Positions 2,791 through 20,035 of a DNA stretch of 20,345 bases are shown here, in pieces. The stretch is from IMG/VR virus record IMGVR_UViG_3300039018_000046, positions 1-20,345 of that record, one strand, 5' to 3'. How positions within the stretch are numbered: position 1 is the stretch's first letter; every line of letters starts with the position of its first letter. The notes under the pieces were generated by a model. It was given only the letters and a program-made list of their open reading frames with translations. It ran no database searches and had not been told where the DNA came from. The DNA comes from a virus. The translations under genes were made by a program, and so were the position numbers.

Positions 2791-3651
2791 ATGTCTATCT
2801 ATCTGACCGATGCCGCCCAGCAGGAATTTGCTGCTGAGGTCAAGCATCAGTACCAGGGTGCCGCCATCCTGAACAACACGACCCGCGTTCGTCGCAACGT
2901 GGTCGGTTCCACCGTCAACTTCCGTCGCTTGGGTACTGGCATTGCCAAGACCAAGGCGATCCAAGACAACGTGAACCCGATGGGTATCACGCACACGAAC
3001 GTGGCTTGCACGCTCGGCAACTGGCACGCCGCTGATTACAGCGACATCTTCGCCCAGGCCGAAGTCAACTACGACGAGAAGGTCGAGCTGGCCAAGAGCA
3101 TCGCGCTCGCCATGGGCCGCCGTTCGGACCAGATCATCATCGACGCTATCGGTACGGGCGCTTCGGCGAACGTCGCCGCTGTCCCGACCTCGGTCGGCGG
3201 TGCTGGCACGGGCCTGAACCTCGACAAGGTGCTTCGCCTGTCGAAGCTGCTCACGGACAACGGCGTGCCGAACGACGGCAAGCGTCACCTTCTGGTGAAC
3301 GGCCGTGGCCTCGAGCAGGCTCTCCTGCTGTCGCAGTTCAGCTCGGCTGACTACAACGCCATCCGTGCGCTGATGGCCGGCGAGATCAACAGCTTCATTG
3401 GCTTCCAGTGGCACATCATCGACAACCGCACTGCAACGGGTCAGGAAGGCGGCCTCGGGCTTGCCTCTGCTGGCGTCCGTCAGGGCTGGGCGTGGCACGA
3501 AGAGTCGGTTGGTTTCGGTGTCGGCATCGACATGAAGACCGAGATCAACTACATCGCCGAGAAGACCAGCTACCTGGTCAACGGTGTGTTCAAGGCTGGC
3601 GCCTGCGTCATCGACGTTAAGGGTGTCCAGGGCGTTCAGTACACGGAATAA
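2791..3651 (+). CDS. Major capsid protein
   Basis: A 286-aa coat protein that builds the icosahedral head shell, presumably with the HK97 fold. The sequence resembles the podovirus capsid family whose members carry an N-terminal basic strand region (TTRVRRNVVGSTVNFRRLG), an ADYSDIFAQAEVNYDEKVEL segment, and a spine helix followed by GRRSDQIIIDA. It ends with the beta-strand IAEKTSYLVNGVFKAGACVI typical of coat C-termini. The start is set by GGAG at 2778-2781, nine bases before ATG. It follows the scaffold and precedes a small head protein 12 bases downstream, and shows no slippery site or 10A/10B-like extension at its end. Strongly biased, regular codon use fits high expression. The identification is firm from context and sequence. 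Confidence 0.93.
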   Translation: MSIYLTDAAQQEFAAEVKHQYQGAAILNNTTRVRRNVVGSTVNFRRLGTGIAKTKAIQDNVNPMGITHTNVACTLGNWHAADYSDIFAQAEVNYDEKVELAKSIALAMGRRSDQIIIDAIGTGASANVAAVPTSVGGAGTGLNLDKVLRLSKLLTDNGVPNDGKRHLLVNGRGLEQALLLSQFSSADYNAIRALMAGEINSFIGFQWHIIDNRTATGQEGGLGLASAGVRQGWAWHEESVGFGVGIDMKTEINYIAEKTSYLVNGVFKAGACVIDVKGVQGVQYTE

Positions 3652-4057: not shown

Positions 4058-4411
4058 ATGGCCACTATTTCTGCCGCGGTTACTCAGGTCAGCGGTCAGG
4101 CGGCCGTTATTACCTGGGCGAGTCTCACCAGCGCCACGTCTGACGTAGGTGAAGCGATCGAGATGCCGTACTTGTCTGACCGTTCGGTTCAGGTGTTTGG
4201 CACCTTCGGGACCGGCGGCACCTGCACGCTGCAGGGCTCCAACGATGGCACAAACTGGGCCACCTTGGACGATACGCAGGGCACAGCCATCGCGCTGACT
4301 GCAGCTGGCATCAAGCAGCTGGCGCCAATCACCCGGTACATTCGTCCAAATATCACGGCAGGCAGTGGCGCCACGATTACTTGCGTGGTTTGTTGCGCCA
4401 GGTCAGCCTAA
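4058..4411 (+). CDS. Putative capsid decoration / surface protein (beta-sandwich)
   Basis: A 117-aa all-beta protein. The pattern SVQVFGTFGTGGTCTLQGSN followed by DGTNWATLDD, a hydrophobic strand, and ITRYIRPNITAGSGATIT is a recurrent phage structural module: short strands with a 'QGSNDGTNW' turn, seen in small virion proteins next to capsid genes. I take it as a head decoration protein, though a tail role cannot be excluded. Ribosome-binding site AAGGAG at 4047-4052 lies five bases before the ATG. It is the first gene after the terminator at 4010-4046, and its stop is one base from the next start at 4413. It carries two adjacent Cys near the C-terminus (VVCCARSA). The gene is secure; the role is inferred. 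Confidence 0.82.
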   Translation: MATISAAVTQVSGQAAVITWASLTSATSDVGEAIEMPYLSDRSVQVFGTFGTGGTCTLQGSNDGTNWATLDDTQGTAIALTAAGIKQLAPITRYIRPNITAGSGATITCVVCCARSA

Positions 4412-4412
4412 G

Positions 4413-5192
4413 ATGCGACGCCGCCGCTCTCTAGGTGGCGCGTTTTCCCCGCGCAAATTGTTCACCAGCGGCGTGGCCGGCGCATGGTACGACCCATCTG
4501 ATTTCAGCACGCTATTTCAAGATAACGCTGGCACTACACCAGTTACCGCTACTGGGCAATCTGTAGGCAGGATTTTAGACAAGTCCGGCAACGCAAATCA
4601 TGCGACTCAGGCAACAGCAGCCTCTAAGCCAACCCTGCAACAAACAGCTGGCGGTCTTTACTATCTGTCTTTTGATGGTTCAAACGACAGCATGTCTACT
4701 TCAAGCATCAACTTCAGCAGCACTGACAAGATGTCGGTATGCACAGGTGTGACAAAATCGAGCGATGCGGCGCAGGCAATTCTGTACGAATTGAGCGTTG
4801 ATACCTTTTCAAATAATGGTTCGTTCTTGTTGTGGGCGCCCGGCGCTGCTGCTGGCGCAAACTATTACGCTCGCGTTCGCGGAAGTTTGTTAAGCAATGC
4901 TATTACTTTTGCTACATACGCCGCTCCAATCACCAATGTTGCCACCATGCTTGCCGACATTTCTGGCGATTCGGTAAACATAAGAGTGAATGGCGCGTCT
5001 GCTGTTACAAGTACATCCGACTTGGGAACCGGAAATTTCGGAAATTATCCGCTATTCATTGGTCGCCGCAATAACGCATCTCTGCCATTTAACGGGCGTA
5101 TTTATCAGATGGTTGTCTGCGGCAAAGCGCTGAGCGCATCGGATCTGGCTGCCGTTGAAAGATTCGTCAACAGCAAAACGGGGGCATATTAA
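4413..5192 (+). CDS. LamG / concanavalin A-like domain protein, putative virion surface
   Basis: A 259-aa protein likely exposed on the particle, where such lectin-like folds bind glycans or other surfaces. After a basic N-terminus (MRRRRSLGG) comes AGAWYDPSDFSTLFQDNAGT and ILDKSGNANHATQAT, the usual opening of phage LamG-like beta-sandwich proteins. LSFDGSNDSM, a central beta region and PFNGRIYQMVVCGKALSASD complete the jelly roll at residues about 20-255. The frame is open back to 4365, but that start would overlap the previous gene; ATG 4413, one base after the upstream stop, gives the family-like beginning. No strong ribosome-binding site is visible, so translation is probably coupled. 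Its base composition is clearly more AT-rich than its neighbours (25 of 60 G+C at 4861-4920), consistent with acquisition as a cassette. Its end overlaps the next start by one base. Confidence 0.85.
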   Translation: MRRRRSLGGAFSPRKLFTSGVAGAWYDPSDFSTLFQDNAGTTPVTATGQSVGRILDKSGNANHATQATAASKPTLQQTAGGLYYLSFDGSNDSMSTSSINFSSTDKMSVCTGVTKSSDAAQAILYELSVDTFSNNGSFLLWAPGAAAGANYYARVRGSLLSNAITFATYAAPITNVATMLADISGDSVNIRVNGASAVTSTSDLGTGNFGNYPLFIGRRNNASLPFNGRIYQMVVCGKALSASDLAAVERFVNSKTGAY

Positions 5193-6094: not shown

Positions 6095-6646
6095 GTGGCC
6101 GCCAAAATCGACATCGTCAATGGTGCGCTCATTGAGCTGGGCGAGACCCCGCTCCAGTCGCTGACCGAGGACACCGAGTCGGCCATCACGGCCAACTACG
6201 TCTACGACCAGGTGTATCACGACCTGCTGTCAAAGGCGCCATGGCGCTTTGCCGTGACCAAGCAGACGCTGTCGCAGCTGGTGGCTACTCCGCTGAACGA
6301 GTGGGCGTATCAGTACCAGATTCCGTCTGAATGCGTCCGGGTCATGCGGGTCTACCCCGATCAGGACTACGACATCTACGGCACCTCGATCTACGCTCAG
6401 TCCAGCGAACTCGCCGTGGACTACGTTGCCAAGGTCGATGAGGCTGTCCTGCCGCCCTACTTTGTGCGCCTGCTGGTGCTCGAGCTGGCGGTGCGTATGT
6501 CCATTTCCATCACGGCCAGCGCCCAAGCAAAGGGGACGCTGGTGCAGGAGAAGCAGCTGCAGTTCGCCGCCGCTCTTGCTGCCGACGCCCAGCAGCGCCC
6601 GAACCGTCCGTTCCTGTCCCGCCCGTTCCTTGATGTCAGGTACTGA
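6095..6646 (+). CDS. Tail tubular protein A (T7 gp11-like, head-tail adaptor)
   Basis: A 183-aa adaptor that forms the ring between portal and tail nozzle. The family signature is complete: IVNGALIELGETPLQSLTED near the start, then YDQVYHDLLSKAPWRFAVTK, then LNEWAYQYQIPSECVRVMRV. A beta hairpin and a C-terminal helix bundle (YFVRLLVLELAVRMS) follow. The length matches T7 gp11-type proteins (about 180-200). The start is GTG at 6095, two bases after the preceding stop. An ATG start would lose the conserved N-terminus, so GTG is preferred. No separate ribosome-binding site is evident, which suggests coupling to the 59-aa gene. Tail tubular protein B follows after two bases. Confidence 0.93.
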   Translation: MAAKIDIVNGALIELGETPLQSLTEDTESAITANYVYDQVYHDLLSKAPWRFAVTKQTLSQLVATPLNEWAYQYQIPSECVRVMRVYPDQDYDIYGTSIYAQSSELAVDYVAKVDEAVLPPYFVRLLVLELAVRMSISITASAQAKGTLVQEKQLQFAAALAADAQQRPNRPFLSRPFLDVRY

Positions 6647-6648
6647 GC

Positions 6649-8781
6649 ATGGCTCAGACCAACGTCTTCAAGAACAACTTTACCTCGGGCGCACTGGACC
6701 CGCGGCTGCACTCGCGCCTCGACATTGCCCACTACGAAAACGGCGCCGAGACGCTGGACAACGTGGTGGTCATGCCTTACGGCGGGCTGCGCCGGCGGGG
6801 TGGCCTGCGGTCCATCTACCACCTGCCAATCGACGCTCACGGCAATGCCATGCTGGCGCGGTTCGCGTACAACTCGACCGACCAGCAGTATCTTCTGTGC
6901 TTTTCTGAACAGCGCGTTTACTTTTTTAAGGATTCTGAGGTAATTCAGAACATCAACGGCACCGGGTTGGATTACCTGGTATCGCCGTGGCCGGTGTCGG
7001 TTGCCCGCGACCTGAAGTGGTCGCAGACCGCTGACACCATGATTATCGTCCACGAGGACTACGCCCCTTACAAGTTGGTGCGTGGCTCTACGGACGCTAC
7101 ATGGACGCTGGCGGCCATCACCTTCGACGCCCAGCCGCAGATTGACTACAACGATGCCAGCAGCCCGACGCCGGTCTCCGAGGTGCAGGACATCACCCTC
7201 ACCACGTTCACAACCGGCAACACGTTCAAGCTGGACCTTGAGAACGTCCTGACCGAGTCCATCACCTACGACGCCTCGGCCACTGCCTCGACCGCCGACC
7301 GCATCCAGAAGGCGCTGGCCAACCTATATGTGGTACGCAGCGGCGAGGTGTCTTGCGCCTTTACGAGCGGCACGACCTACCGAGTGACGTTCTCTGGCGG
7401 GTCTGCCAAGGACTACAACACGATGACCGGGTTCGCCACCAGCGGCTCCGGTACCATTGCCATCACCCAGATTACGGCAGGCTCGGTCCGCACCGAAAAC
7501 GCATGGAGCGCCACCCGCGGCTGGCCAAAGTCGGTCTGTTTCTACGAGTCGCGGCTGGTGTTCGGCGGGTCCAAGTCCAAGCCGGCCACCGTGTTCCTGT
7601 CCAAGTCGAACGGCTACTACGACTTCGGTTTGGGCTCTGGCCTTGCCGATGACGGCATCCAGAAGACGCTGGACACTGACCAGGTCAATGCCATCGTCAA
7701 CGTGGTGCCCGGTCGCCACCTAATGATTTTCACCGAGGGCGGCGAGTTCTTCGTCCCTGACTTCCCCATCACCCCCGAGAACTCGAACTTCCGGCCGCAG
7801 ACCACCTTCGGGTGCGCCACGCCGGACCCCATCGAGCTCGAGGGTGCGGTGCTGTTTCTGGACCGCTACGCTCGCGGGCTGCAGCAGTTCCTGTACAACG
7901 ACGTGGAAGCGGCCTACACCGCCAATAGCATCAGCCGGCTGTCTGGCCACATCATCGACTCGCCGCTCGACATGGACGTGCAGCGCAGCTCGTCGCTCGA
8001 GGACACCAATCTGGTGTATCTCGTCAACACCGATGGCACTGCGGCGGTCCTGAACCACCTGCGTGCCGAGTCGATTGCAGCGTGGACGCGGTTCGTAACC
8101 GACGGTGCGTTCCTGTCGGTGTCTGCCCTAGGCGAGGAAGTGTACTTCCTCGTTCGCCGCTCCGGATCTACGGGCGCGGCATGGTCCATCGAGCACCTGC
8201 GGGACGACTTCTACACCGACGATGCCGAGCAGTACTTCACTGGCGCAATCTTGCTAGAGAGCGGTGACTATATTCTGGCCGAGGATGGCGACACCATCCT
8301 GCTGGAGGTCTCTGCCGCTGGCACGACATGGGCTGTCGGCACTCACCTCGATGGCATCGAATGCCGGGTGCGTGGTGATGGCGCGGTCATGGAGAACGTG
8401 ACCCCCAGCAGCGGCAGCATTACCTTGTCGGCTGAAGTGACCGAAATCGAGATTGGCCGCAACTTCAATACGACCATCGAGACCTTGCCGGTGGCAGTGA
8501 ACTCGTCGCAGTTCGGGATGTCGCAGCTGCAGCGCACCCGCCTTGCAGCCATCCTGACGCGAGTGAGGTCCACACAGGGCCTGCTGGTCAATGGCCGCTC
8601 GCCGCGCCAGCGCAAGATGGATGTCGATGCCTTGGACACGGCCGCCGGCCTGTACTCCGGCATCCTAGAGAATCGCTCGACCGGGTGGGGTCGGCTGCAG
8701 AACATCACATTCACCCAGGAGGACCCGCTCCCGCTCCAGCTCCTGGCCATTGAATACGTCGCCGAAATCAATAATGGGTGA
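6649..8781 (+). CDS. Tail tubular protein B (T7 gp12-like tail nozzle)
   Basis: A 710-aa protein forming the hexameric nozzle of the short tail, the exit channel for DNA. The N-terminus NNFTSGALDPRLHSRLDIAH with ENGAETLDNVVVMPYGGLRR is diagnostic of this family: 'F.sGelsP.l..R.Dl..Y..g...l.N..v.p.Gg..rR.G'. Residues around 280-370 carry the typical WSATRGWPKSVCFYESRLVF segment. Around residues 532-556 there is a short repeated motif (ILLESGDYILAEDGDTILLE), a common phage beta-repeat insertion. The C-terminus forms a beta-rich domain with PLQLLAIEYVAEINN. Length is within the usual range for gp12 homologues (about 650-800). It follows protein A directly and precedes the ejection proteins. Confidence 0.94.
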   Translation: MAQTNVFKNNFTSGALDPRLHSRLDIAHYENGAETLDNVVVMPYGGLRRRGGLRSIYHLPIDAHGNAMLARFAYNSTDQQYLLCFSEQRVYFFKDSEVIQNINGTGLDYLVSPWPVSVARDLKWSQTADTMIIVHEDYAPYKLVRGSTDATWTLAAITFDAQPQIDYNDASSPTPVSEVQDITLTTFTTGNTFKLDLENVLTESITYDASATASTADRIQKALANLYVVRSGEVSCAFTSGTTYRVTFSGGSAKDYNTMTGFATSGSGTIAITQITAGSVRTENAWSATRGWPKSVCFYESRLVFGGSKSKPATVFLSKSNGYYDFGLGSGLADDGIQKTLDTDQVNAIVNVVPGRHLMIFTEGGEFFVPDFPITPENSNFRPQTTFGCATPDPIELEGAVLFLDRYARGLQQFLYNDVEAAYTANSISRLSGHIIDSPLDMDVQRSSSLEDTNLVYLVNTDGTAAVLNHLRAESIAAWTRFVTDGAFLSVSALGEEVYFLVRRSGSTGAAWSIEHLRDDFYTDDAEQYFTGAILLESGDYILAEDGDTILLEVSAAGTTWAVGTHLDGIECRVRGDGAVMENVTPSSGSITLSAEVTEIEIGRNFNTTIETLPVAVNSSQFGMSQLQRTRLAAILTRVRSTQGLLVNGRSPRQRKMDVDALDTAAGLYSGILENRSTGWGRLQNITFTQEDPLPLQLLAIEYVAEINNG

Positions 8782-8784
8782 GCC

Positions 8785-9297
8785 ATGTCAGACCCTGTAA
8801 CGCTGTTTTTTATTGCTGCCTCCACTGCTACCGCTGCCTACGGAACCGTGCAGGCTGGCAAGGCGCAGGCGTACCAGTACAAGGCCGAGGCAAATCAGGC
8901 CAAGATGCAGGCGCGTGACGTGGAAATCGCCCGTCGGCAGAAGCTGCTGCAGGCACTGGCAGAGCGACAGGTAGCGACGGCCGCCGGTGGCGCCACGCTC
9001 GAGGGTACGCCTGGCGTGCTCATCAACGCATCCGAGCAGGCGGCCAACATGGACGCTCTCAGCCTCGAGGGCATGACCGCATCCCGAGTCGCCACCCTGA
9101 ACGCCGCGGCTCGCAATGCCAGAACGACTGCCAATATCTCTGCCGGTGCTCAAGTGCTGGCCGCTGGTGCGGCTGCCTCTAATACGATGGCTGGTCCCAA
9201 GACGGCCTCGGCTCCCGGAATTTCTGGTGGCGGGTCGCCTCCGGGCGCTCTCGGTCGCATCACTCCCAAGGGCGGCGCCGGGCTCGTGCCACGGTAA
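8785..9297 (+). CDS. Internal virion protein, small (T7 gp14-like position)
   Basis: A 170-aa ejection protein candidate. It starts with a hydrophobic Ala-rich segment (TLFFIAASTATAAYGTVQAG) that could insert in a membrane, followed by a long helix with YQYKAEANQAKMQARDVEIA and the conserved-looking LAERQVATAAGGATLEGTPG and RVATLNAAARNARTTANISA. A disordered Gly/Ser/Pro tail ends the protein. This arrangement is typical of the gp14-type proteins of many podoviruses: they leave the head first and are thought to form the pore in the outer membrane. It starts three bases after the nozzle gene. The family is recognised by pattern and order, not by a catalytic motif. Confidence 0.85.
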   Translation: MSDPVTLFFIAASTATAAYGTVQAGKAQAYQYKAEANQAKMQARDVEIARRQKLLQALAERQVATAAGGATLEGTPGVLINASEQAANMDALSLEGMTASRVATLNAAARNARTTANISAGAQVLAAGAAASNTMAGPKTASAPGISGGGSPPGALGRITPKGGAGLVPR

Positions 9298-9306
9298 GGA
9301 ATCACA

Positions 9307-10857
9307 ATGGCCGATTACGAACGCTTCATCCGTTACCAGGCACAGTCCCAAGACACCGGGCAGGCGCAGGTTTTCGCCACCCTGTCTGACCGCCTGCGTG
9401 ACTTCTCGAACCAGATCTACGAGCAACAGGTCGTGCCGGCCGTCAAGGCCAAGGCACAGGCAGCTGGTGCTGCAGCTGGTGCAGCTGGCACCCCGCAGCT
9501 GAAGTCCAGCTTCACGCTGTACGGACGCGCCTACAACGACTCGGCGGTTCGCGCCTATGCCATGTCCCAGTACTCGGACATCGAGCAGACCATGGGCCAG
9601 TTCGAGGCAGATGCCGGAACAGACGCCGCCAAGTTCACCGCAAAGGTCGAGGGATACCGCAATGGCGCGCTGCAAGGCGTCATCGCCGAGGCCCGCCCGT
9701 TCATCCAGCAGATGGTGCAGGAGCGCTCTCAGGAGGGCCTGAGTCGCATCACGACGGCCGCCCGAGTGCAGGCCAAGCAAACCATTCAGGTGCAGATTGC
9801 TGCTGGCCTCGATGTGATGGCTGGTAAAATCTCGCAGTACTACACCGAAGCCACCCCCGAATCTGTCGCCAAGGCACAGGTCACCGGACAGGTGTACCTC
9901 GATATGGTGGACCGTTCGGTTGCCGATGGCACATTCACCCCACAGCAGGGGCAAGCGGTCAAGGACAACCACTTAAAGCAGAGCATGGAGTGGTTATCGG
10001 CTGGGCGCCTCCAGGCCGAGTACAGGCGGCCCAACGGCAACCCGGTGCAGGTCATCAAGGACGTTCTGGCAAATCCGGCACTGACAGATGAAGACCGCCA
10101 AACGCTCGGGCGCAATCTGTTCAACCGTCTGAACCTGCTGCAGACCGCCGACCGAGAAGCCAGCGCCCGCAGCGACGCCGAGTTCAAGGCCGAGGCTGAG
10201 GCCGCAGACCGCGACCTGACCTCGATGCTGCTGCGTGGCAAGTTGACCATTGGTAAGATTGACGAGGCTGTGCGCCTTCGCGGGTTGAACCCCAGTCGCG
10301 CCACCGCTCTAATGGAGAAACTCAGTTCCGGACCCGGTGCCGATGATGCCCGCGAGCGGTTTAAAGTTGAAACCAACCTGCTTACTTACACCCGCGACGA
10401 GATTGAGAATAATCCACGTTTGAGCTGGGACACCAAGCGAGTTCTCACAGAGAAACTGGATTCTCGACTTGGCGGGTGGCAGGACAGCAATCCGTCGCAG
10501 GAAGCCCGCCGGCGCATCGACAATTCGCTCGGCATCGTGCAGGGCATCCCCAACCCGCTGCTGACAGCTGAGATTGCCGCCAAGCGTGGCGAGGCGCTCA
10601 CGGCATGGTACGACGCCATGGAACTGGTGCCGCCGGCTGAACGCGATGCGAAGGCCCTGACGATTGCTGACCAGGTAATCAATACCACCACCAGCAAGTT
10701 CAAGGCGAAGAACGACGTGACCCGTCTGACCAATCGTCTGACCAGATTGCGGGCGCAACTTGCCGAGACCAAGGGCAAGGAAGCAAGAGCCACCATTGAG
10801 GCTGAAATCGCTACCGTGAGCAGCAACCTGACTGCCGCACAGGGAAGACTGCCATGA
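9307..10857 (+). CDS. Internal virion protein, middle (T7 gp15-like position)
   Basis: A 516-aa, highly charged and mostly helical protein in the slot of T7 gp15, which forms part of the internal core and, after ejection, the periplasmic tunnel. There is no signal peptide, no hydrophobic span and no catalytic motif that I can see. An N-terminal region ends in an Ala-Ala-Gly linker (residues about 52-61). Then come TLYGRAYNDSAVRAYAMSQY and a helical middle rich in Gln and Ala. A likely coiled coil occupies residues about 465-516 (LTNRLTRLRAQLAETKGKEA). AAGGA at 9296-9300 serves as ribosome-binding site, and the stop overlaps the next start by ATGA. I do not recognise a specific family beyond this context. 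Confidence 0.8.
   Translation: MADYERFIRYQAQSQDTGQAQVFATLSDRLRDFSNQIYEQQVVPAVKAKAQAAGAAAGAAGTPQLKSSFTLYGRAYNDSAVRAYAMSQYSDIEQTMGQFEADAGTDAAKFTAKVEGYRNGALQGVIAEARPFIQQMVQERSQEGLSRITTAARVQAKQTIQVQIAAGLDVMAGKISQYYTEATPESVAKAQVTGQVYLDMVDRSVADGTFTPQQGQAVKDNHLKQSMEWLSAGRLQAEYRRPNGNPVQVIKDVLANPALTDEDRQTLGRNLFNRLNLLQTADREASARSDAEFKAEAEAADRDLTSMLLRGKLTIGKIDEAVRLRGLNPSRATALMEKLSSGPGADDARERFKVETNLLTYTRDEIENNPRLSWDTKRVLTEKLDSRLGGWQDSNPSQEARRRIDNSLGIVQGIPNPLLTAEIAAKRGEALTAWYDAMELVPPAERDAKALTIADQVINTTTSKFKAKNDVTRLTNRLTRLRAQLAETKGKEARATIEAEIATVSSNLTAAQGRLP
9460..9489 (+). repeat. Short in-frame repeat GCAGCTGGT x3
   Basis: Three copies of GCAGCTGG(T/C) sit at 9460-9468, 9472-9480 and 9481-9489, with one GCT codon between the first two. 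They encode an Ala-Ala-Gly linker in the 516-aa internal protein. This is probably a slippage-prone flexible hinge and not a regulatory element. Confidence 0.7.
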
Positions 10858-13163
10858 CGGACCTAACCTCTCAGTTCATGACCTCGGCCCCGGTAGATCC
10901 GGACGAGGCTGCATTCGAGCGCAAACTGTCCATCGCCCGTGCCACGGACGCCGCCAGCGAGGAATCTCCGTTTGCCGCCATGCTTGGCCCCATTGGCCAG
11001 AGGGCATTTACCGGGTACGTCAAGACCGCCGTGCAGACGATGGGTATGACCAACCGCATTGCAGCAGGGCTGACCGAGGCGGCACTGCAGGTTTACAACA
11101 CGGTGGGAAGTGCAATAGATGTCGTTGCCGAGGCCGTGGTAGGCGAGCAGCCCAGCCAGACCACCATGGCAGACCTTATAACAGGGCAGAAGAAGCCGCC
11201 GGCACCAGTCACGCCAACACCAGTTTCACCAGCGCCAGTAGAAACTCCGCTGGCTGGCCCGACATGGAACGATGCCCCCATCAAGGACGCGCTAACCCGC
11301 CTGCGCGACGAGGCCCGCGCCGAGGCTGGTCGCCAAGGAGTCGGCGAGGACAGTCTTGCAGGCAACCTGACCGAAGGCACCGTGCAGTTCATGGTCCCAT
11401 TCTCGATGGCACTCAAGACCATGGGCGGCCTGCAGGCTGGCGCCACGGCGGCGAATATTGCCAAGGGTGCAGCCGCTGAGGCCGTGACTATGTTCGGCGC
11501 GTTCGACCCGCACGCTGGCCGCTTTGCTGACCTGGTGCGTGCCGTGAGCCCCGACGGACTGGCATCTAACCGATACATCGACTATCTAACCAACCGCGAA
11601 AACGAAGGCGAGTTTGAGGGTCGATTCAAGAACGTGGTGGACAGTTTGTCAGGTTCCGCTGCAGTAGCTGGAGCACTGAAAGTCGGCGGCACCACGCTCC
11701 GCGCAGCACACCTAGCAGCCACGACCCCGTCGCCTACCAAACTGCAGGCGCAACGTGGGTCGATTGATTTAAGAAAACTCAGCCCAGAGCAGGCTGCAAT
11801 AGCAGAGCGTTCCCGCAATTTGTGGAGTTCCGGTTCAACGCCAGAACTTGTGCCTCAATTGCTTGGCCCGGATAACACGCCATTGACCGAGTACTTTGCT
11901 CGCAATCCTGAAATAAAGACATTTGTTGACCAAAATCCGGGGATTGTTTCAACTAGGCTTCCCACCGCAATAAATGCCAAAGAAAACCGAAATTCTCAGA
12001 ATTTGCTTATTGATTACTCTGTTGCAAAGAGCGACCCAAAATCATTTGATAAAAATATTGGGATGATGTCTCAATATCCAAACTTCAAAATTGATGAGGG
12101 TATGAGTCCAGACCAACAATCAGAGCAAATGATTGACCAGATGAAGAGCAATCTACTGTTTCTTCACGACACCATGCCTCAAAACTACAGGGACCGTTCG
12201 CACCTGTGGTATGTCGGCGCAAGAAACATCGTTGATTCGTGGGCCCCTAAATACGAACTTCCAGATCAGGCTGTGTCTGGCGTTCTTGCTGTTCTCAGCC
12301 CGCAAAAAGACTGGTTCCAGAATGTTTCTTTGGCAGAACGTGTCCTTGACATCAGCAGAAACCAAAGAGACTTCTCTTGGAATAGCAAGATGGACGCCAA
12401 AGCATCTGAGATATGGGACGCAAAATATGCACCAATCTTGGACTTGGTACGAAACAAGACTTTTGGCGAGTTAACTTCGCCAGAAGAAAAGGCTTTGTGG
12501 TTGAGGACCTATGACCAGGCATTCAATTCACCAGATCACCTTGTGGTAAGTCCGGAAGGAAACTTTGAAGGTCCGCGCCTTACGGATTCTGGTGGCCGTC
12601 GAAAGATTGCGTGGGGCTCTCTGAACGAAATCGGCAAGGCCGTTGCCATTGTGGACAATCCGGAAATTGCAAATATCAGCAGACTGCTTGGTGATATGCA
12701 CAAGGTTCGCAGCTTCTACAGCAACATCTACGCGCCGTTTGACCCCCGTGGTGCAGCCACCATTGACACCCACGCAGTTGCCGCGGCAATGCTTCGGCCG
12801 CTGAGCGGCAAGTCAAGGGAAGTTCTTCACAACTTCGGAAGCGGCATCGTAGGAGAGGGCGGCCCCGGAAAGAATAGCCTGCTTGGAGTAAACGGAACTT
12901 ACGGTATAATTTTGGAAGCGTACCGTCGAGCCGCGGCAGAGCGAGGGCTGCTGCCCCGTGAGCTGCAGTCAATCACTTGGGAAGGTGTGCGCGGATTGTT
13001 CCCGGACAAGTGGAAGAGGCCCCAGAACGCAGCATCAATTGATGCGATCTGGAACAGGTACCGCAACGGCGAAATGACACTTCAAGAGGCCCAGAATGAA
13101 GTTATCCAAGCAAGCCCCAACAAAGGCACCGGAACCCCAGAATGGGCCCGAGCCGCAAAGTGA
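10854..13163 (+). CDS. Chimeric internal virion protein with a putative HhH-glycosylase-like C-terminal domain
   Basis: A 769-aa protein among the ejection genes. Residues 1-290 are GC-rich in coding and look like an internal virion protein: a helical start, a Pro-rich linker near 110-130 (APVTPTPVSPAPVE), an amphipathic Ala/Gly/Met region (residues about 175-215), and FGAFDPHAGRFADLVR. From residue about 300 the DNA turns AT-rich and the protein changes style. Visible blocks are HLWYVGARNIVDSWAPKY (450-467), GVLAVLSPQKDWFQNV (476-491), K617 in MHKVRSFYSNI, D638 in ATIDTHAVAAAM, LLGVNGTYGII (from 676) and ITWEGVRGLFP (707-717). The K..D pair, 21 residues apart with 'DTH', resembles the catalytic lysine and aspartate of endonuclease III-type HhH glycosylases. 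I recall similar blocks in an uncharacterised phage domain (DUF7178-like, from memory). The gene overlaps its upstream neighbour by ATGA and the next gene in another frame. Virion location is inferred. Confidence 0.8.
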   Translation: MTDLTSQFMTSAPVDPDEAAFERKLSIARATDAASEESPFAAMLGPIGQRAFTGYVKTAVQTMGMTNRIAAGLTEAALQVYNTVGSAIDVVAEAVVGEQPSQTTMADLITGQKKPPAPVTPTPVSPAPVETPLAGPTWNDAPIKDALTRLRDEARAEAGRQGVGEDSLAGNLTEGTVQFMVPFSMALKTMGGLQAGATAANIAKGAAAEAVTMFGAFDPHAGRFADLVRAVSPDGLASNRYIDYLTNRENEGEFEGRFKNVVDSLSGSAAVAGALKVGGTTLRAAHLAATTPSPTKLQAQRGSIDLRKLSPEQAAIAERSRNLWSSGSTPELVPQLLGPDNTPLTEYFARNPEIKTFVDQNPGIVSTRLPTAINAKENRNSQNLLIDYSVAKSDPKSFDKNIGMMSQYPNFKIDEGMSPDQQSEQMIDQMKSNLLFLHDTMPQNYRDRSHLWYVGARNIVDSWAPKYELPDQAVSGVLAVLSPQKDWFQNVSLAERVLDISRNQRDFSWNSKMDAKASEIWDAKYAPILDLVRNKTFGELTSPEEKALWLRTYDQAFNSPDHLVVSPEGNFEGPRLTDSGGRRKIAWGSLNEIGKAVAIVDNPEIANISRLLGDMHKVRSFYSNIYAPFDPRGAATIDTHAVAAAMLRPLSGKSREVLHNFGSGIVGEGGPGKNSLLGVNGTYGIILEAYRRAAAERGLLPRELQSITWEGVRGLFPDKWKRPQNAASIDAIWNRYRNGEMTLQEAQNEVIQASPNKGTGTPEWARAAK

Positions 13164-13293
13164 TGGCAGCGAGGACTATGTGGTAAAGCTGCTGAAAAAG
13201 GCAGGCTTACCGGTTACTCGTGAAAACTACATTGGATTGGCTTATCCCGAAGGATTGCCAGAAGACTTTGGGGAAGAGCAAATCCCCGTGTAA
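13096..13293 (+). CDS. Small 65-aa protein with a TRENY..LAYPEGLPED motif
   Basis: A small gene whose first 68 bases overlap the end of the 769-aa gene in a different frame. The N-terminal third is Pro/Gln/Glu-rich, presumably constrained by the overlap. The rest, VVKLLKKAGLPVTRENYIGL followed by AYPEGLPEDFGEEQIP, matches a short motif I know from many phage and prophage proteins ('agiPvTReNYL.lAY.g.lPee...E.E..lP'), either as small proteins or as C-terminal tails. Its function is unknown. AAGAGG at 13084-13089 precedes the ATG at 13096, and no other ATG exists in frame. The base composition is AT-rich like the end of the upstream gene, so the two probably arrived together. The following gene starts 17 bases later. 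Confidence 0.75.
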   Translation: MKLSKQAPTKAPEPQNGPEPQSDGSEDYVVKLLKKAGLPVTRENYIGLAYPEGLPEDFGEEQIPV

Positions 13294-13310
13294 TTTAAGG
13301 AAAGTGACCC

Positions 13311-16133
13311 ATGCCTGACTTTGGCCTAACCAAGCTGGTCCTCCGCGCAGCCCGCGAAGCGAAGGTGACGCGCCCTGCTGCTGAGGCGGTTCCGACGGCC
13401 ATTGCTGGCGCTGCTACCCCGCCGGCTACTGCCGTGCCCGGTTCACCCCCGGCGTCGGCCATTGCAGGCCCTGCCCCTGCTGACATCCCCAACCCCACGC
13501 CTGCAGCCCCCGCGCGTCCCTCTGCGGCCCCTGCTGCCGCTACCGTGCCAACGCCTGCCGCTGCCGTTATCGAGCCTCCTGCGGGCGCTGCGGCGCCTGT
13601 AGAGGTCCCGGTCACTCCTGCCGCTCCGCGCCTGCCGTCTCCGCTCATGCCGGAGGTCAATATCGACGAGCGTGCTAGGGCAGTAAGCCGGGCTACCCTC
13701 GGCGACTTCGACCTCGATGCCACGCACCAGACGAACTTCGACACCATCACCACGACGGACGATGTGAAGGCCGTCATCGCTGAGGCTGCCGACCGCAATG
13801 CTCCGCTCATCGAGGAGTCCCGCCGCGGGACCATCTCCAACGAGCAGCTGAAGGGGCTGGCCGCCGACCTGAACATGGAGCAGGACATTGTCCGTGCCGT
13901 GCTCGAGCGCGAGTCTGGCGGCGTCCTGCGGCCCGAGGTCATCCTCGGCGCCCGTCAGGTGCTGAACGCCTCGGCAGATAGAGTTCTGCAGCTGGGTAAA
14001 AAGATTTCCACCGGCGGCGCGACCGACATCGAGCGCCTGCAGTTCCGTCGGCAGGTCCAGTTTCACGACGAGTACCAGCGCCAGTTCATGGGCGCCCGTG
14101 CCGAGACCGGCCGTGCCCTGAATGCGTTCGGTATTCCGACCGGCATCGAGAACGAGCCGATGCGCCTCAAGGCGCTGCAACAGTTTGTCGATACCATGCA
14201 TGGCGCAGACACCGACGCGCTGGCTGCAATGGTCGCACAGCTCGATACCGCTGAAGGGATTGGGCGTTTCACCCGCGAGTACAGCCGCAGCCGGGTTGCC
14301 GGCGTCCTGCAGGAGCTGTTCATCAATTCGCTGCTGTCCGGCCCCAAGACGCATATCATCAACGCTCAGGGCAATGCCCTGTTCTCGATGATGAATATCT
14401 TCGAGACGGCCGTCGCTGCTCGCCTTGGCAAGATGCTGCCGGGCGCCGACCATGTCGAGATTGGCGAGGCTTCGGCAATCCTGTTTGGTCAGATAACCGG
14501 GTTCCGCGATGCGATGCGGGTGGCAGCCAAGTCGTTCCGCGAAGGCCGGGCGCTCGATGCCGCCATGAAGTACACCGGCCACACGGACCGGGCTATCTCA
14601 ACGGCCAACCTGTTCCGCGACAGCCAGCCCCACCCAAGCGTGGCAGCGGCGCTGGATCTGATTGGTGCGGCCATCCGTCTGCCGACCGAGCGCGTCATGG
14701 CCCCGACGGACGAGTTCTTTAAGATGATGGCCTTCCGTGGGGAACTAACACGAAATGCCTTTCTGCACGCGATGGATCTCACTCAGTCCAAGGTAATGAC
14801 CGGGGACGAGATTGCCCAGGTCATCAAGGATTTCATGGAGAACCCGCCGCAGCGGGTGCTGTCGGTCGCCGAAGACCAGGTGCAGATGATGACGTTCCAA
14901 CAACCGCTGGGTCCGATAGCCTCGAAGTGGCAGGCTGCACTGAGCAAGACACCCGGCGCGTTCTTCATTGCCCCATTCATCAAGACTCCGGTCAATATCT
15001 TCAAGGCTGGCCTGATGGAGCGCAGCCCACTGGCGCTGTTCTCCGAGAAGGTGCGCCGCGACATTGCTGGCGGTGGTCGAGCCCGAGACATGGCGCTGGC
15101 CAAGCTGTCCATGGGCAGCCTGACGGTCGGCACGGTGGCGGTCATGACCGCTTCCGGGTTTATTACTGGTGGCGGCCCGCAAAACCGAGACGCCCGTCGC
15201 ACTCTTGAAGCCACTGGCTGGCAGCCTTATGCGTTCGTCATCCCCAACGAAGACGGCACGGCGACGTACCAATCGTATGCGCGCGCTGAGCCGCTGGCCT
15301 ATGTCATTGGCGCCACCGCGGACGCCGTTGAGGTCGGTGCTTATCTCGACTACGACGATGAGATGAAGGACGAGGCGCAGGCAAGCAGCGATGCTCTCGC
15401 GGCAGTAGTGGCCGGCGTAGCAAATAACACCATGTCTAAGACCTTCCTGCAGGGCGTGGCCGACTTCTCCGAGGCTATGGCAGAGCCGAAGCGGTTTATG
15501 ACTCAGTTCCTGACCTCGACCGGAACGGCATTGATTCCCTACTCTTCGTTCCGTCGGCAGGCTGCTCAGATGGATGACCCGGTCCTCCGCGAGGCTTGGA
15601 CACTGACGGACAAAATTTCGACCTCCAGCGGCATTCCCGGATGGAGCGAAAAGGCACCCCCGCGGCGTGACGTATTTGGCGAGCCGATGTACCGCAAGGG
15701 CGGCTCTTTGATGGGTGTCATGTCCCCGTTTCCGGTCAGCACCACCAAGGTCGACCCGGTCATGGACGAGGTACTGTCAATCATGAATCAGACCCGCACC
15801 GTGCCGGTCGGAATGCCTGGTCGACGCATCGAGAACCTGAAACTGACGGTTGAGGAGTACGACGAGCTGGTGACGTACAGCCGGCGCGACCCCCTGCCGG
15901 ACGGCCTGACCTTCAAGGAACACCTGCAGGACCTCATGGATTCGCAGGCGTACCAGCTGGCCACGCCGGACTACAAGGTGGTGCTATTCAAGCAGGTCCA
16001 GAATGTGGCCGACCAGGTGGGCCGGGCCATGCTGGAACAGAACAACCAGGCATTCTCCGACCGGCTGGCCGACCGCAGGTTGCTGAAACAGAAGAAACAC
16101 TTCGGCGCCGAGGCGGTTATAGAGGCGCCGTAG
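13311..16133 (+). CDS. Large internal virion protein (T7 gp16-like position)
   Basis: A 940-aa protein, the largest ejection-protein candidate. Residues about 20-113 are an extreme Ala/Pro-rich low-complexity tract. A long, mainly helical body follows, with FRRQVQFHDEYQRQFMGARA, then ELFINSLLSGPKTHIINAQG (residues about 334-353). That motif is shared by large internal proteins of many podoviruses. Around 595-625 a hydrophobic Gly-rich stretch (GSLTVGTVAVMTASGFITGG) is followed by GPQNRDARRTLEATGWQPYA and a YARAEPLAYVIGA segment, also typical of this family. I see no lytic transglycosylase motif of the kind found at the start of T7 gp16. A ribosome-binding site AAGGAAAG at 13297-13304 supports the ATG at 13311. 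It is GC-rich throughout, in contrast to the genes just upstream. It would line the trans-envelope DNA channel. Confidence 0.87.
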   Translation: MPDFGLTKLVLRAAREAKVTRPAAEAVPTAIAGAATPPATAVPGSPPASAIAGPAPADIPNPTPAAPARPSAAPAAATVPTPAAAVIEPPAGAAAPVEVPVTPAAPRLPSPLMPEVNIDERARAVSRATLGDFDLDATHQTNFDTITTTDDVKAVIAEAADRNAPLIEESRRGTISNEQLKGLAADLNMEQDIVRAVLERESGGVLRPEVILGARQVLNASADRVLQLGKKISTGGATDIERLQFRRQVQFHDEYQRQFMGARAETGRALNAFGIPTGIENEPMRLKALQQFVDTMHGADTDALAAMVAQLDTAEGIGRFTREYSRSRVAGVLQELFINSLLSGPKTHIINAQGNALFSMMNIFETAVAARLGKMLPGADHVEIGEASAILFGQITGFRDAMRVAAKSFREGRALDAAMKYTGHTDRAISTANLFRDSQPHPSVAAALDLIGAAIRLPTERVMAPTDEFFKMMAFRGELTRNAFLHAMDLTQSKVMTGDEIAQVIKDFMENPPQRVLSVAEDQVQMMTFQQPLGPIASKWQAALSKTPGAFFIAPFIKTPVNIFKAGLMERSPLALFSEKVRRDIAGGGRARDMALAKLSMGSLTVGTVAVMTASGFITGGGPQNRDARRTLEATGWQPYAFVIPNEDGTATYQSYARAEPLAYVIGATADAVEVGAYLDYDDEMKDEAQASSDALAAVVAGVANNTMSKTFLQGVADFSEAMAEPKRFMTQFLTSTGTALIPYSSFRRQAAQMDDPVLREAWTLTDKISTSSGIPGWSEKAPPRRDVFGEPMYRKGGSLMGVMSPFPVSTTKVDPVMDEVLSIMNQTRTVPVGMPGRRIENLKLTVEEYDELVTYSRRDPLPDGLTFKEHLQDLMDSQAYQLATPDYKVVLFKQVQNVADQVGRAMLEQNNQAFSDRLADRRLLKQKKHFGAEAVIEAP

Positions 16134-16225
16134 TACTTAGACCGAGGGGAGGGTAGGCTTCCGCTCATAATAATGAGCGTCCAGCGCCTCTCCGACATTG
16201 CCCGATTTCCGGGCTGGAGGCGTTG
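16134..16225 (+). promoter_or_regulatory. Structured leader of the tail-spike gene
   Basis: This is a 92-base gap in a gapless neighbourhood. It holds a perfect 7-bp hairpin (16162-16179), a 4-bp stem CCCG/CGGG (16201-16204 with 16210-16213) and CGCCTC at 16185-16190. CGCCTC can pair with GAGGCG at 16217-16222 and so cover the ribosome-binding site GGAGG (16216-16220) of the spike gene. No T-run follows any of the stems. I see no clear phage or sigma70 promoter. The structure could set the level of spike translation; that is inference. Confidence 0.5.
16162..16179 (+). other. Perfect 7-bp hairpin upstream of the tail-spike gene
   Basis: CGCTCAT (16162-16168) pairs with ATGAGCG (16173-16179) around the loop AATA. 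The next bases are TCCAGCGCC, not a T-run, so terminator function is unlikely on the + strand. It may be an RNA-processing or stability stem between the large ejection-protein gene and the spike gene. Confidence 0.6.
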
Positions 16226-18826
16226 ATGGCTAATCCGACGATTGGGGCTACGACGCCTCGCATTCAATACACCGCGACCGCGAGCCAGACGGTGTTCACC
16301 GTCCCGTTCGAGTTCCTCGCCAATGCTGACCTGGCGGTGTACGTCAACGGCACTCTGAAAACCCTGACCACGGACTACACCCTGACCGGGGCTAATACTA
16401 CCGGCGGCGGTTCGCTGACCTTCGTCACCGGCAGGACGGCCGGAGACATCGTCACCATCCTTGGCGATCTCGACTACTCGCGCAACACGAACAAGTACAC
16501 GAAGTATGGCCTGTTGCCGGCTGAGGTCCTCGAGGCCGACTTCGACGCTCTGCAGGTTCAGGCCAAGCAGCTGGCGCGAGACGGCCAGTTTGCCCTGCGT
16601 GCACCGCTGACCGATACCGCAACACCTGACATGGTGCTTCCGGTCAAGGCAACCCGTGCCAGCAAGTTGCTGGGCTTTGATTCCGATGGCGACCCGGTTG
16701 CCAGCTCGAGCACAGTTGCGGCTATGGATGCCGCGGTGACAGCTATCAATACGATTGCTGGCGCAGCTGCTGGAAGTTCTGCCGGCATTTCGCATATTAG
16801 CGCTGGCACTGGTGCTGTAGTTACAACCGTGCAGGCCAAACTGCGCGAGAAGATAAGCGTTAAGGACTTCGGCGCTGTGGGCGACGGGGTAGTGGACGAC
16901 ACGGCTGCGATTCAGGCAACTATCGACTACGCAATTTACCAGTCAATGACGACCGGCGGAAAAGCGCAGGCAGTCGTTTATGTTCCAGACGGTGTGTATA
17001 GAACCACCAGAACGCTTTACCTTGGGTACGGTGATTCGCCGCATTCGATTGTTTTTCAGGGTGCAGGAAAGCGCAAATCGACAGCAAGTGCTTTTGGTGG
17101 GACTTGGATTTTTTGCGACTTTGGCAACGCCCCTGGCATCTCCGTAACAAGAATGGAAAGCCCGCGTATTTGCAATATGACGATTGCTGGGCGAAACCAA
17201 ACTTGGGTGCAAAGCAATAATCTTGGCGGTGTAAATCCAGTTTTTGCAGACCTTGCAGCAACTGACTGGGTAAACCCTGACAACAATGTTATTCCAGCGG
17301 TTAATAAAACAGAGCCTACCAATCGGTATTGCCCTTATGCTGGTATTGCACTTGACCCGTATCAAGGCGCACAACCTGCAAATCCATACCCGGATATTGT
17401 ATTTCCTTCGTGGTGGACTGGTTCAACCGCGCAGTACAACAAGCCATCGTCAAACAATCTTCAACTTGAAGAAGTCAATATCTTTGGGTTTGTAGTTGCG
17501 TTTGCAGTATCTCCCGGTCCTTTGGATTCGGGCGGCGATTACACCAAGGTTACTAAGTGTAATTTTTCGTACAACCAGTACGGCATGGCTGTTTGCGGCG
17601 ATGAATCGCGGGTAGTACACGTTCTCGATTCAATCATTGATTGGTGCCATACCGCATTGGTTACTGCAAAGTACGGCAGCCAAACCGGCAAGGGGCATAT
17701 TTTGTTCACTTCATGTGAACTAGGCGCAATCATTCAGTGGTGCAATGTTCCAACACTGTCGTATGGCGGCCCGTTGGTATTTGACCATTGTTATGGAGAA
17801 GTTGTTTACGCTCTTGGAAGTTGTTCTGGAAATATTGACCAAAGAGCAGTAGTTTTTCGCAATTGCGAAGTTGGATTTACTGGGTCTTGGAGCGTTCGCG
17901 GAGTTCCAAACACTGTGTTTTCTAACACGGGGCCTGCAGTAATAGACAGTTGTACGTTTAGCGTTGGGGACTATTTTTGCGCCCTGTCATTTAAGACCCC
18001 GCCAAAGTATCTTCAGTTCACAAACAATTACATGGTTTATGACGCATCGCCTGAACCATCGCAATCTTTAAAGCACGCATTACGCGCAACAAATGGCGTT
18101 ACTTTTGGTGTTGAAAGCTACAATCAGTATTTAGCTTCATGGAGCAACAATACGGCGTCTTTGCTTACGCGTTCTTGGTGGATTTCGCTTAATACGCTTT
18201 GCTTGTGGGACCGTGAAACTCGGCTAACATCACCTCCTAGCGGCGCCGGTATTCCTATTGCGTATCAAAGTCAGTCTATAAACAGGGCTACTTTTTCTGG
18301 AACAATTACAGGAAGAGATATAACTCTGACAGCAACAGGTTACAGCAACTGGGAACTGTACCAATACGCGCTGAATCTTGGCGACATTCTTATCGACAAC
18401 ACAACTGGCGTTGTGTTTGTAATAACGTCAAGCAATTCAACAACAGTTACGGCAACAGCAACAAACGGGTACGACAGCGCAGGAAACATGATTAATTTCA
18501 ATGCTGCGTCTGGTCTGTTTTATACATTCCCGTCCAGATTGTTTTCTATCGAAATGTCGAACTCGCCAGCGTTTGCTTTGTACGGAGACACAACGGCAGC
18601 CAATGCAACGATGAGCAGTATTGGCCGAGCCGATGGGGTTGCAGTATCTTTAACTTCGCACGTTGTTGCAGGCGATTACATCTACAACAACCCTTTCTAT
18701 GAAAACGTATGTAATTCGTCAGGTTCAAGGGTTGCATCGGTAACAGGAACCAGCATTACTATTGACGGCACGTTTAGCCGGACGCAGACTTTTAGGCGGT
18801 TGCCATTGGCAATTAAAAAGGTCTAG
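16226..18826 (+). CDS. Tail spike: T7-fibre-like anchor plus pectate-lyase-like beta-helix (putative depolymerase)
   Basis: An 866-aa receptor-binding protein. Residues 1-150 (IQYTATASQTVFTVPFEFLA, the strand pair DLAVYVNGTLKTL, then YTKYGLLPAEVLEADFDALQ) form the T7 gp17-type N-terminal domain that attaches to the tail nozzle. After an Ala/Thr-rich linker, residues 209-221 (KISVKDFGAVGDG) with DDTAAIQATIDYA open a pectate_lyase_3-type right-handed beta-helix. This is the fold of tail spikes that cut capsule or O-antigen. The helix runs to about residue 640, and a beta-rich C-terminal domain follows. Active-site residues cannot be assigned by eye. TTG at 16223 is in frame, but ATG at 16226, five bases after GGAGG, is the better start. 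The anchor is GC-rich; from about 16950 the DNA is AT-richer (29 of 60 G+C at 17101-17160), marking an exchanged host-range module. Confidence 0.92.
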   Translation: MANPTIGATTPRIQYTATASQTVFTVPFEFLANADLAVYVNGTLKTLTTDYTLTGANTTGGGSLTFVTGRTAGDIVTILGDLDYSRNTNKYTKYGLLPAEVLEADFDALQVQAKQLARDGQFALRAPLTDTATPDMVLPVKATRASKLLGFDSDGDPVASSSTVAAMDAAVTAINTIAGAAAGSSAGISHISAGTGAVVTTVQAKLREKISVKDFGAVGDGVVDDTAAIQATIDYAIYQSMTTGGKAQAVVYVPDGVYRTTRTLYLGYGDSPHSIVFQGAGKRKSTASAFGGTWIFCDFGNAPGISVTRMESPRICNMTIAGRNQTWVQSNNLGGVNPVFADLAATDWVNPDNNVIPAVNKTEPTNRYCPYAGIALDPYQGAQPANPYPDIVFPSWWTGSTAQYNKPSSNNLQLEEVNIFGFVVAFAVSPGPLDSGGDYTKVTKCNFSYNQYGMAVCGDESRVVHVLDSIIDWCHTALVTAKYGSQTGKGHILFTSCELGAIIQWCNVPTLSYGGPLVFDHCYGEVVYALGSCSGNIDQRAVVFRNCEVGFTGSWSVRGVPNTVFSNTGPAVIDSCTFSVGDYFCALSFKTPPKYLQFTNNYMVYDASPEPSQSLKHALRATNGVTFGVESYNQYLASWSNNTASLLTRSWWISLNTLCLWDRETRLTSPPSGAGIPIAYQSQSINRATFSGTITGRDITLTATGYSNWELYQYALNLGDILIDNTTGVVFVITSSNSTTVTATATNGYDSAGNMINFNAASGLFYTFPSRLFSIEMSNSPAFALYGDTTAANATMSSIGRADGVAVSLTSHVVAGDYIYNNPFYENVCNSSGSRVASVTGTSITIDGTFSRTQTFRRLPLAIKKV

Positions 18827-19402: not shown

Positions 19403-19571
19403 CCCAGCAAGCACGCGGCTGGCTGACGCCGCTGCCGCCACCAGCTCGATCGGTTGGCTGGCCTCTGTCGCCACCGATACCCTGCCCATATTCCAGCTGC
19501 TGGCCGCACTGGTGGCCATTGTGGCCGGCGTGTTCGCCATCGCCTATCACTGGCAGCGTCTCAAAAAATGA
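19395..19571 (+). CDS. Small one-span holin
   Basis: A 58-aa protein with a polar Ala/Ser-rich N-terminus, a single strong membrane segment at residues about 31-51 (PIFQLLAALVAIVAGVFAIA) and a basic tail (YHWQRLKK). This layout fits small class II/III-type holins such as T7 gp17.5, which permeabilise the inner membrane to release or activate endolysin. The frame is open upstream to 19347, but ATG 19395 has GGAGG at 19382-19386 eight bases before it and leaves only an 8-base overlap with the previous gene. The stop overlaps the endolysin start (ATGA), the usual holin-endolysin coupling. The assignment is by size, topology and position. Confidence 0.85.
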   Translation: MSNPASTRLADAAAATSSIGWLASVATDTLPIFQLLAALVAIVAGVFAIAYHWQRLKK

Positions 19572-20035
19572 GCGCCTTCGACCGTGCGCTGGCACTGGTG
19601 CTGCGTCACGAAGGTGGGCTAGTCAGCGATGAACGCGACCCCGGCGGGATTACCAACTTCGGCATCAGCCAGCGGGCATACCCCGACCTAGACATTCGCA
19701 ACCTAAAGGTTGCAGATGCGGCGAATATTTACCGCACAAACTATTGGGACGCCATCAAGGGCGACCAGCTGCCGGACGGGCTGGCCATCTGCGTGTTCGA
19801 TGCCGCAGTGAACATGGGCACCGACAAGGCCATCAGGCTCTTGCAGAAGGCCTGCTCAGTACAGGTCGATGGATTGATTGGCCCTAACACCCTACGGGCC
19901 GCCAGCCGCCTGCCAGACGCTGTGGCGCGGTTCTCTGCCGATAGGGTAATTGCTTACACCGGAATCAGGAACTTCGACCTGTACGGTCGCGGATGGTTAC
20001 GGCGTACCATCGCCACTGCAATGGAGGCAGCATGA
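19568..20035 (+). CDS. Endolysin: GH108-type N-acetylmuramidase with PG_binding_3 domain
   Basis: A 155-aa lysis enzyme that cleaves the glycan strands of peptidoglycan. Residues 1-85 hold the GH108 (ZliS-like) signature: LVLRHEGGLV with the presumed catalytic glutamate E15, then DERDPGGITNFGIS. Next comes the YRTNYWDAIKGDQLPDGLAI segment, and FDAAVNMGTDKAIRLLQKAC with VDGLIGPNTLRA (to about residue 120) is the PG_binding_3 region. No signal peptide or arrest sequence is visible, so it should depend on a holin. The frame is open further upstream, but ATG 19568, overlapping the holin stop, gives the correct family N-terminus and usual length (about 150-180). The stop overlaps the next holin by ATGA. 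Confidence in the family is high. Confidence 0.94.
   Translation: MSAFDRALALVLRHEGGLVSDERDPGGITNFGISQRAYPDLDIRNLKVADAANIYRTNYWDAIKGDQLPDGLAICVFDAAVNMGTDKAIRLLQKACSVQVDGLIGPNTLRAASRLPDAVARFSADRVIAYTGIRNFDLYGRGWLRRTIATAMEAA

Follow-up and report, generated by a model that had tools for sequence, protein, structure and literature searches.

A candidate OGG-like DNA glycosylase domain of family DUF7178 in an ejection-region protein of a podovirus

Why should a gene situated among the ejection genes of a podovirus encode a domain that resembles a DNA glycosylase? This question is raised by a 769-aa open reading frame (ORF) in the window analyzed here, i.e., the whole stretch of 20,345 bases, a virus record that carries a podovirus late module (Table 1). 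The ORF begins with ATG, its frame is open throughout, and it is situated inside the ejection block, where it occupies the ejection-protein slot of the late module, as had been supposed in a sequence-only reading of this DNA. The same reading proposed an endonuclease III-like domain. The analyses described below lead to a modified answer, namely that the gene probably encodes an OGG-like HhH-GPD glycosylase/AP lyase of a subfamily of its own, DUF7178, as part of a packaged protein that is ejected with the genome.

Table 1. Genes of the late module and features of the 769-aa protein, in positions of the window.
Feature	Position	Strand	Family match or remark
Head-tail connector	57-1397		
Major head protein	2791-3651		
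Tail tube protein	6095-6646		
Tail tube protein B homologue, upstream syntenic marker	6649..8781	+	phrog_376
Ejection block	8785-16133		
Internal virion protein homologue	8785..9297	+	phrog_418, weak match (E 2.4e-4)
516-aa ORF in ejection block	9307..10857	+	family match absent
Ejection-region protein, 769 aa, with C-terminal DUF7178 (OGG-like HhH-GPD) domain	10854..13163	+	PF23802, phrog_3842
N-terminal region, about residues 1-369	10854..11960	+	family match absent
DUF7178/HhH-GPD-like domain, residues ~376-755	11979..13118	+	
Motif L481-SPQKDWFQN-490; Q484, candidate residue inserted in DNA gap	12294..12323	+	
Insertion with beta hairpin, ~residues 509-590	12378..12623	+	fused form only
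K617, candidate Schiff-base lysine, start of second HhH helix	12702..12704	+	
F621 (K+4), pocket position of OGG1 Cys253/AGOG Phe by spacing	12714..12716	+	
D638-T639-H640, candidate catalytic Asp and phosphate-contacting His	12765..12773	+	
Q705-S-I-T-W709, candidate base-pocket pair Q705/W709	12966..12980	+	
Internal virion protein, directly downstream of the 769-aa ORF	13311..16133	+	phrog_6651
Tail spike/fibre	16223..18826	+	
Endolysin	19454-20035		

The two parts of the protein differ in composition. The N-terminal region contains moderately hydrophobic stretches, resembles the flanking genes in GC content and shows similarity to close relatives only (L001, L002, and L098). A DPH motif in this part, examined as a possible ejection signal common to the relatives, was discarded because the relatives lack it. 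From residue ~300 onward, GC falls from ~0.6 to 0.37-0.57, which bears out the AT-richness reported earlier for residues 300-769; the low point (37%) lies at residues 351-400. Over positions 11961-13160, GC amounts to 50.3% compared with 59.4% for the whole window, and third-position GC of the domain stretch is 0.53 compared with 0.76-0.82 in the adjoining virion genes. A domain had been placed at residues 300-769; it is real, but its recognizable extent starts at about residue 376 and not at 300. The translated 769-aa protein contains no cysteine anywhere. Other low-GC modules exist in this GC-rich genome: the gene at 4365-5192 encodes an AT-rich LamG/concanavalin-like virion protein (PF13385, phrog_10356), and the tail spike combines a GC-rich N-terminal anchor with an AT-rich, pectate-lyase-like body (third-position GC 0.50), a composition that is consistent with exchange of receptor-binding modules.

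The domain matches Pfam family DUF7178 (PF23802) with an E-value of 3e-23 and 83.2 bits, at a curated cut-off of 27 bits, and also phrog_3842. A scan of viral contigs with the single sequence identified 165 relatives, a profile scan at least 581 contig stretches with DUF7178, and bacterial and archaeal assemblies contributed 12 further relatives. In addition, 124 records show free-standing members of ~200 aa in phages of Mycobacterium, Streptomyces, Microbacterium, and Roseobacter and in cyanobacterial phages. Homology between the fused and the free-standing form is confirmed by profile comparison (hhalign probability 99.7%, E 1.5e-26); the ~80-residue insertion at residues 509-590 is present in the fused form and missing from free-standing relatives. 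A literature search on DUF7178 returned no paper. In public phage records, however, some free-standing members carry the depositor annotation “glycosylase” or “N-glycosylase/DNA lyase,” so that for this form a glycosylase had already been suggested. A single Opitutae assembly (G003) exhibits a free-standing gene (L194:1471-2097) and a fused gene (L090) on separate contigs. In a SAR116 assembly (L096:8996-12525), the DUF7178 gene is divided among three ORFs and is consequently regarded as broken or mis-assembled.

Sequence comparison places the domain close to no solved structure. PDB sequence and profile searches with the window domain gave no significant match, the corresponding search with the free-standing family returned one chance match and no homologue, and hhalign comparisons with endonuclease III and MutY profiles were not significant. 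The comparison with OGG2 was weak (28% probability, P 6e-4), with D-x-H and a Trp in register, and no alignment was obtained with OGG1. That these comparisons fall short of significance would explain the “unknown function” label of DUF7178. An AlphaFold model of the window domain, predicted from 45 aligned relatives, reached a mean pLDDT of 90.8. Foldseek searches with this 400-residue model yielded no match below E 0.2, and VIA-align was used for a second look at the Foldseek candidates. The 25 best rows were all HhH-GPD-fold proteins with Z-scores from 9.4 to 4.7, followed by unrelated folds at Z 2.8 or less; the individual values were 9.4 for the OGG2 structure 3n0u, 8.8 for the queuine salvage protein DUF2419, 7.6 for AGOG, 7.5 for EndoIII-3, and 6.8 for hOGG1, although middling Z-scores may mean little for helical proteins. 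For both reasons, i.e., the lack of a Foldseek match below this value and the ambiguity of middling scores, a compact free-standing relative was modeled too (pLDDT 93.9). With this model, Foldseek ranked the 8-oxoguanine glycosylase/lyase MjOgg first (probability 1.00, E 8.9e-3), VIA-align likewise placed MjOgg at the top (Z 13.2, rmsd 3.2 over 172 of 200 residues), and all 50 rows listed were HhH-GPD glycosylases. The domain is therefore predicted to adopt the HhH-GPD fold, a helical two-domain architecture with a helix-hairpin-helix. The endonuclease III-like assignment thus stands with respect to the fold; the nearest enzymes, however, are the 8-oxoguanine glycosylases OGG2, AGOG, and OGG1.

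As DUF2419 structures score nearly as well as OGG2 on the window model (Z 8.8-7.8), the main rival to a DNA glycosylase is a hydrolase of the same fold that acts on free or RNA-borne nucleosides or nucleotides and not on DNA. Like the queuosine salvage glycosylase Qng1/DUF2419, such an enzyme could, for example, remove a signaling or modified nucleotide as a counter-defense, and the occurrence of the nucleotide enzymes GGDEF and InPase among the polyvalent partners of the domain elsewhere would suit this role. However, DNA glycosylases take the leading places throughout among the matches of the free-standing model (Z 13.2-8.6), and the conserved LSPQ/LSPN loop and D-x-H typify DNA glycosylases that insert a residue into DNA and contact its backbone (PMC3397491); a nucleoside or nucleotide substrate is consequently considered unlikely. 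A search with PF10343 gave no match in the genomes searched, but as control genomes were equally without a match, this result carries no information. Scanning with the PADLOC defense families produced no match to the window protein.

Candidate residues can be named for the predicted DNA glycosylase activity. K617 within MHKVRSFYSNI and D638 within ATIDTHAVAAAM, both highlighted in the sequence-only reading, were recovered in the translated ORF. In both models a helix is followed by a short turn, a second helix, a loop, and a third helix; in the window model the helix-turn-helix spans model residues 236-257 with the second helix at 247-257. According to DSSP, K617 (model residue 248; 121 in the free-standing relative) opens the second hairpin helix and D638 (model residue 269; 138 in the relative) caps the following helix. 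A lysine that opens the second hairpin helix and an aspartate that caps the next helix constitute the catalytic layout of HhH-GPD enzymes, and the predicted structures thus place both residues at the catalytic positions. The spacing between them, quoted earlier as about 18 residues for bifunctional HhH glycosylases, is 21 in the window copy and 17-19 in free-standing relatives. A K-x(15-24)-hDTH pattern is expected by chance at ~0.003 per 769 aa (two occurrences in 501,088 residues of other ORFs from the same loci).

The loop at residues 481-490 would be the counterpart of LSAQ in EndoIII and of LTAN/LTPQ in OGG2, as judged from its pattern and from the order of helices. In those enzymes the polar residue of the loop fills the DNA gap. 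The loop reads LSPQ in the window protein and LSPN or LSPR in free-standing forms. The LPGVG hairpin, already described as not obvious, is indeed degenerate, with LLGDMHK in the window protein and L-S-G-P-K in free-standing relatives taking the place of the canonical sequence; hairpins of AGOG enzymes deviate from it too (PMC3397491).

Conservation was counted in 206 sequences, made up of 127 distinct fused proteins and 79 free-standing ones. Every one of them contains K617, F621, and D638, so that the predicted catalytic pair is unchanged across both forms; Q705 and W709 are ~99% conserved, and W452, Y453, S482, W487, and N490 are likewise conserved in the combined set. The aromatic blocks noted earlier are consequently real, as W452-Y453, W487, and W709 are invariant or almost so in the alignment of relatives. 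This pattern also bears on the proposal that the fold is kept mainly for binding or bending DNA within the ejection apparatus, with catalysis being unimportant. Such a role would be in line with the position of the gene amid structural ejection genes and with the non-specific DNA binding of HhH folds, but strict conservation hits the catalytic Lys and Asp as well as the pocket Gln, Phe, and Trp in fused and free-standing proteins alike, none of which a structural role needs, and it is thus judged distinctly improbable.

The candidate base pocket of the proposed glycosylase was derived from the last helix. The structural aligners give alignment end points only, and these fall in this helix: residue 195 of the free-standing relative and residue 346 of the window model both pair with hOGG1 residue 325, whereas residues 194 and 200 of the relative pair with MjOgg 203 and AGOG 233, respectively. 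Assuming an ungapped last helix, the models make Q705/W709 equivalent to Q315/F319 of OGG1, D194/W198 of OGG2, and D218/W222 of AGOG, the residues that have been described as corresponding to one another in the three OGG subfamilies, where they read the base and stack on it (PMC3397491). The K+4 position is occupied by Phe, like in AGOG. In OGG2, a strictly conserved C-terminal lysine senses 8-oxoG (PMC3397491). The alignment of DUF7178 relatives contains no conserved C-terminal Lys, and the N-terminal A-domain beta sheet of OGG1 with Gly42 is absent, the models being helical. Consequently, specificity for 8-oxoG is not predicted, and the missing OGG2 lysine argues for DUF7178 as a separate OGG-like subfamily. 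As modeled, the pocket suggests a guanine-type base, not specifically 8-oxoG. Since the missing sensor leaves the substrate open and phages replace and hypermodify bases, a glycosylase-like site that exchanges or hypermodifies a base without leaving an abasic site might also be imagined, but this is very improbable given that the window holds no base-synthesis genes and that an enzyme brought in by the particle ahead of replication would be ill suited to modifying progeny DNA throughout the genome.

Packaging of the putative glycosylase is suggested by its genomic context. Tail tube B, DUF7178, and the internal virion protein follow one another in this order on one strand in all 40 loci that show both markers, and in 34 of these the gap to the downstream gene is 0-4 bases. 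In L005/L175 the DUF7178 domain and the internal virion protein (phrog_6651) even share a single ORF. The fused protein of Roseobacter phage CRP-738 adjoins the portal gene, and a giant ORF of phage LS06-2018-MD07 that includes DUF7178 has an annotated internal virion protein in its neighborhood. The protein is therefore likely to be delivered into the cell together with the genome. Of 178 rows (duplicates included), 47 show the domain in ORFs of 1,000 to 5,127 aa; the giant ORFs scanned combine DUF7178 with ART-PolyVal, RadC, ddrB-ParB, GGDEF, zeta toxin, InPase, and GNAT as well as with LPD3, LPD22, and LPD38. Such combinations are the signature of polyvalent proteins, which have been proposed to enter with phage DNA (PMC5512222). 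Individual giant ORFs encode 3,263 aa with the glycosylase-like domain, a zeta-toxin kinase, and LPD22 (L015:5505-15293), 2,869 aa with GGDEF, RadC, and DUF7178 in Pseudofulvimonas gallinarii (L088:1647-10253), and ~3,100 aa with DUF7178 under the sole annotation “methyltransferase” (L083, OP947163). In P-SSP10 the free-standing gene lies upstream of that for RNA polymerase, and in Triumph it is separated by a few genes from one for an Ocr-like antirestriction protein. From its location near early-type genes in several phages we infer that both forms would act early, the fused form earliest.

In the proposed mechanism, the helix-hairpin-helix and the 481-490 loop would grip and kink the DNA, and Q484 would occupy the place vacated by a base that has flipped out. 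This base, most likely of guanine type, would be sandwiched by F621 and W709, with Q705 reading it. Aided by D638, K617 would then attack C1' and release the base, and the resulting Schiff base could nick the strand by beta-elimination. The phage may thus bring a ready-made candidate base-cutting enzyme to the earliest stage of infection. Its most likely role is DNA work during the first infection minutes, either the excision of oxidized bases from the incoming genome or the cutting of host or rival DNA. A more far-reaching version of this model, which is offered as a speculation with the odds against it, holds that many podoviruses and phages with giant polyvalent proteins inject a pre-made glycosylase of a fourth OGG-like subfamily that acts on a guanine-type modification, not on 8-oxoguanine, in the DNA of the host or of rivals and so serves as a weapon or counter-defense at the very start of infection.

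The fold class, the Pfam family, and the polyvalent-protein idea were already known; new are the residue-level assignment for DUF7178 and its virion-borne, polyvalent setting. Neither an OGG-type pocket assignment for DUF7178 nor the virion-borne form was found in the literature searched, the coverage of which is incomplete, and a search for glycosylases in ejection proteins returned no paper. DNA glycosylases are repair enzymes and, since 2024, have also been known from antiphage defense, with Brig1 as an example (PMC11078745); in the present case, such an enzyme appears to travel inside the phage particle. A Pfam family of unknown function thereby gains a proposed function, candidate active-site residues, and a class of substrates that can be tested, and polyvalent proteins would gain an activity that is unmentioned in the main text of the 2017 survey (PMC5512222). 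Whether incoming phage DNA is repaired at entry or host DNA is attacked can now be tested.

Among known enzymes, the OGG2 proteins (MjOgg, 3knt/3fhf; SsOgg, 3fhg; TM1821, 3n0u) share the compact all-helical HhH-GPD fold with the free-standing relative (Z 12.2-13.2), and DUF7178 exhibits their catalytic Lys and Asp, D-x-H, the Trp at the W198 position, and an L-[ST]-x-[NQ] loop. In contrast to OGG2, it lacks the conserved C-terminal lysine, has Gln for Asp at position 194 and Phe for His at K+4, and carries the ~80-residue insertion in its fused form; the sequence similarity is not significant. With OGG1 (hOGG1, CacOGG) it shares the catalytic Lys/Asp, D-x-H, Gln at the Q315 position, and an aromatic residue at +4, but it has no N-terminal A-domain bearing the Gly42 sensor and shows Trp for Phe319 and Phe for Cys253. 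AGOG resembles DUF7178 in its fold (Z 7.6 with the window model, 9.5 with the free-standing relative), in the Trp at the W222 position, and in the Phe at K+4, and differs in Asp218, for which DUF7178 has Gln. Endonuclease III (Nth) has the fold (Z 10.8, free-standing relative), the Lys with a VDTH-like D-T-H, and the LSxQ loop in common with DUF7178, whereas the window protein lacks the cysteines of the [4Fe-4S] cluster and its LPGVG hairpin is degenerate.

Among phage proteins, the free-standing members Microbacterium phage Cece gp22, S-CRES3 gp63, and SIO1 gp9 belong to the same family and exhibit the same invariant residues; they differ in their length of ~200 aa, in having neither insertion nor fusion, and in the location of their genes outside the structural module in the records examined. 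The window protein itself has one recognized domain. In this it differs from the polyvalent phage proteins (Iyer et al., 2017, PMC5512222), whose multi-domain make-up is shared by the giant DUF7178 relatives, and some of these giant relatives adjoin virion genes.
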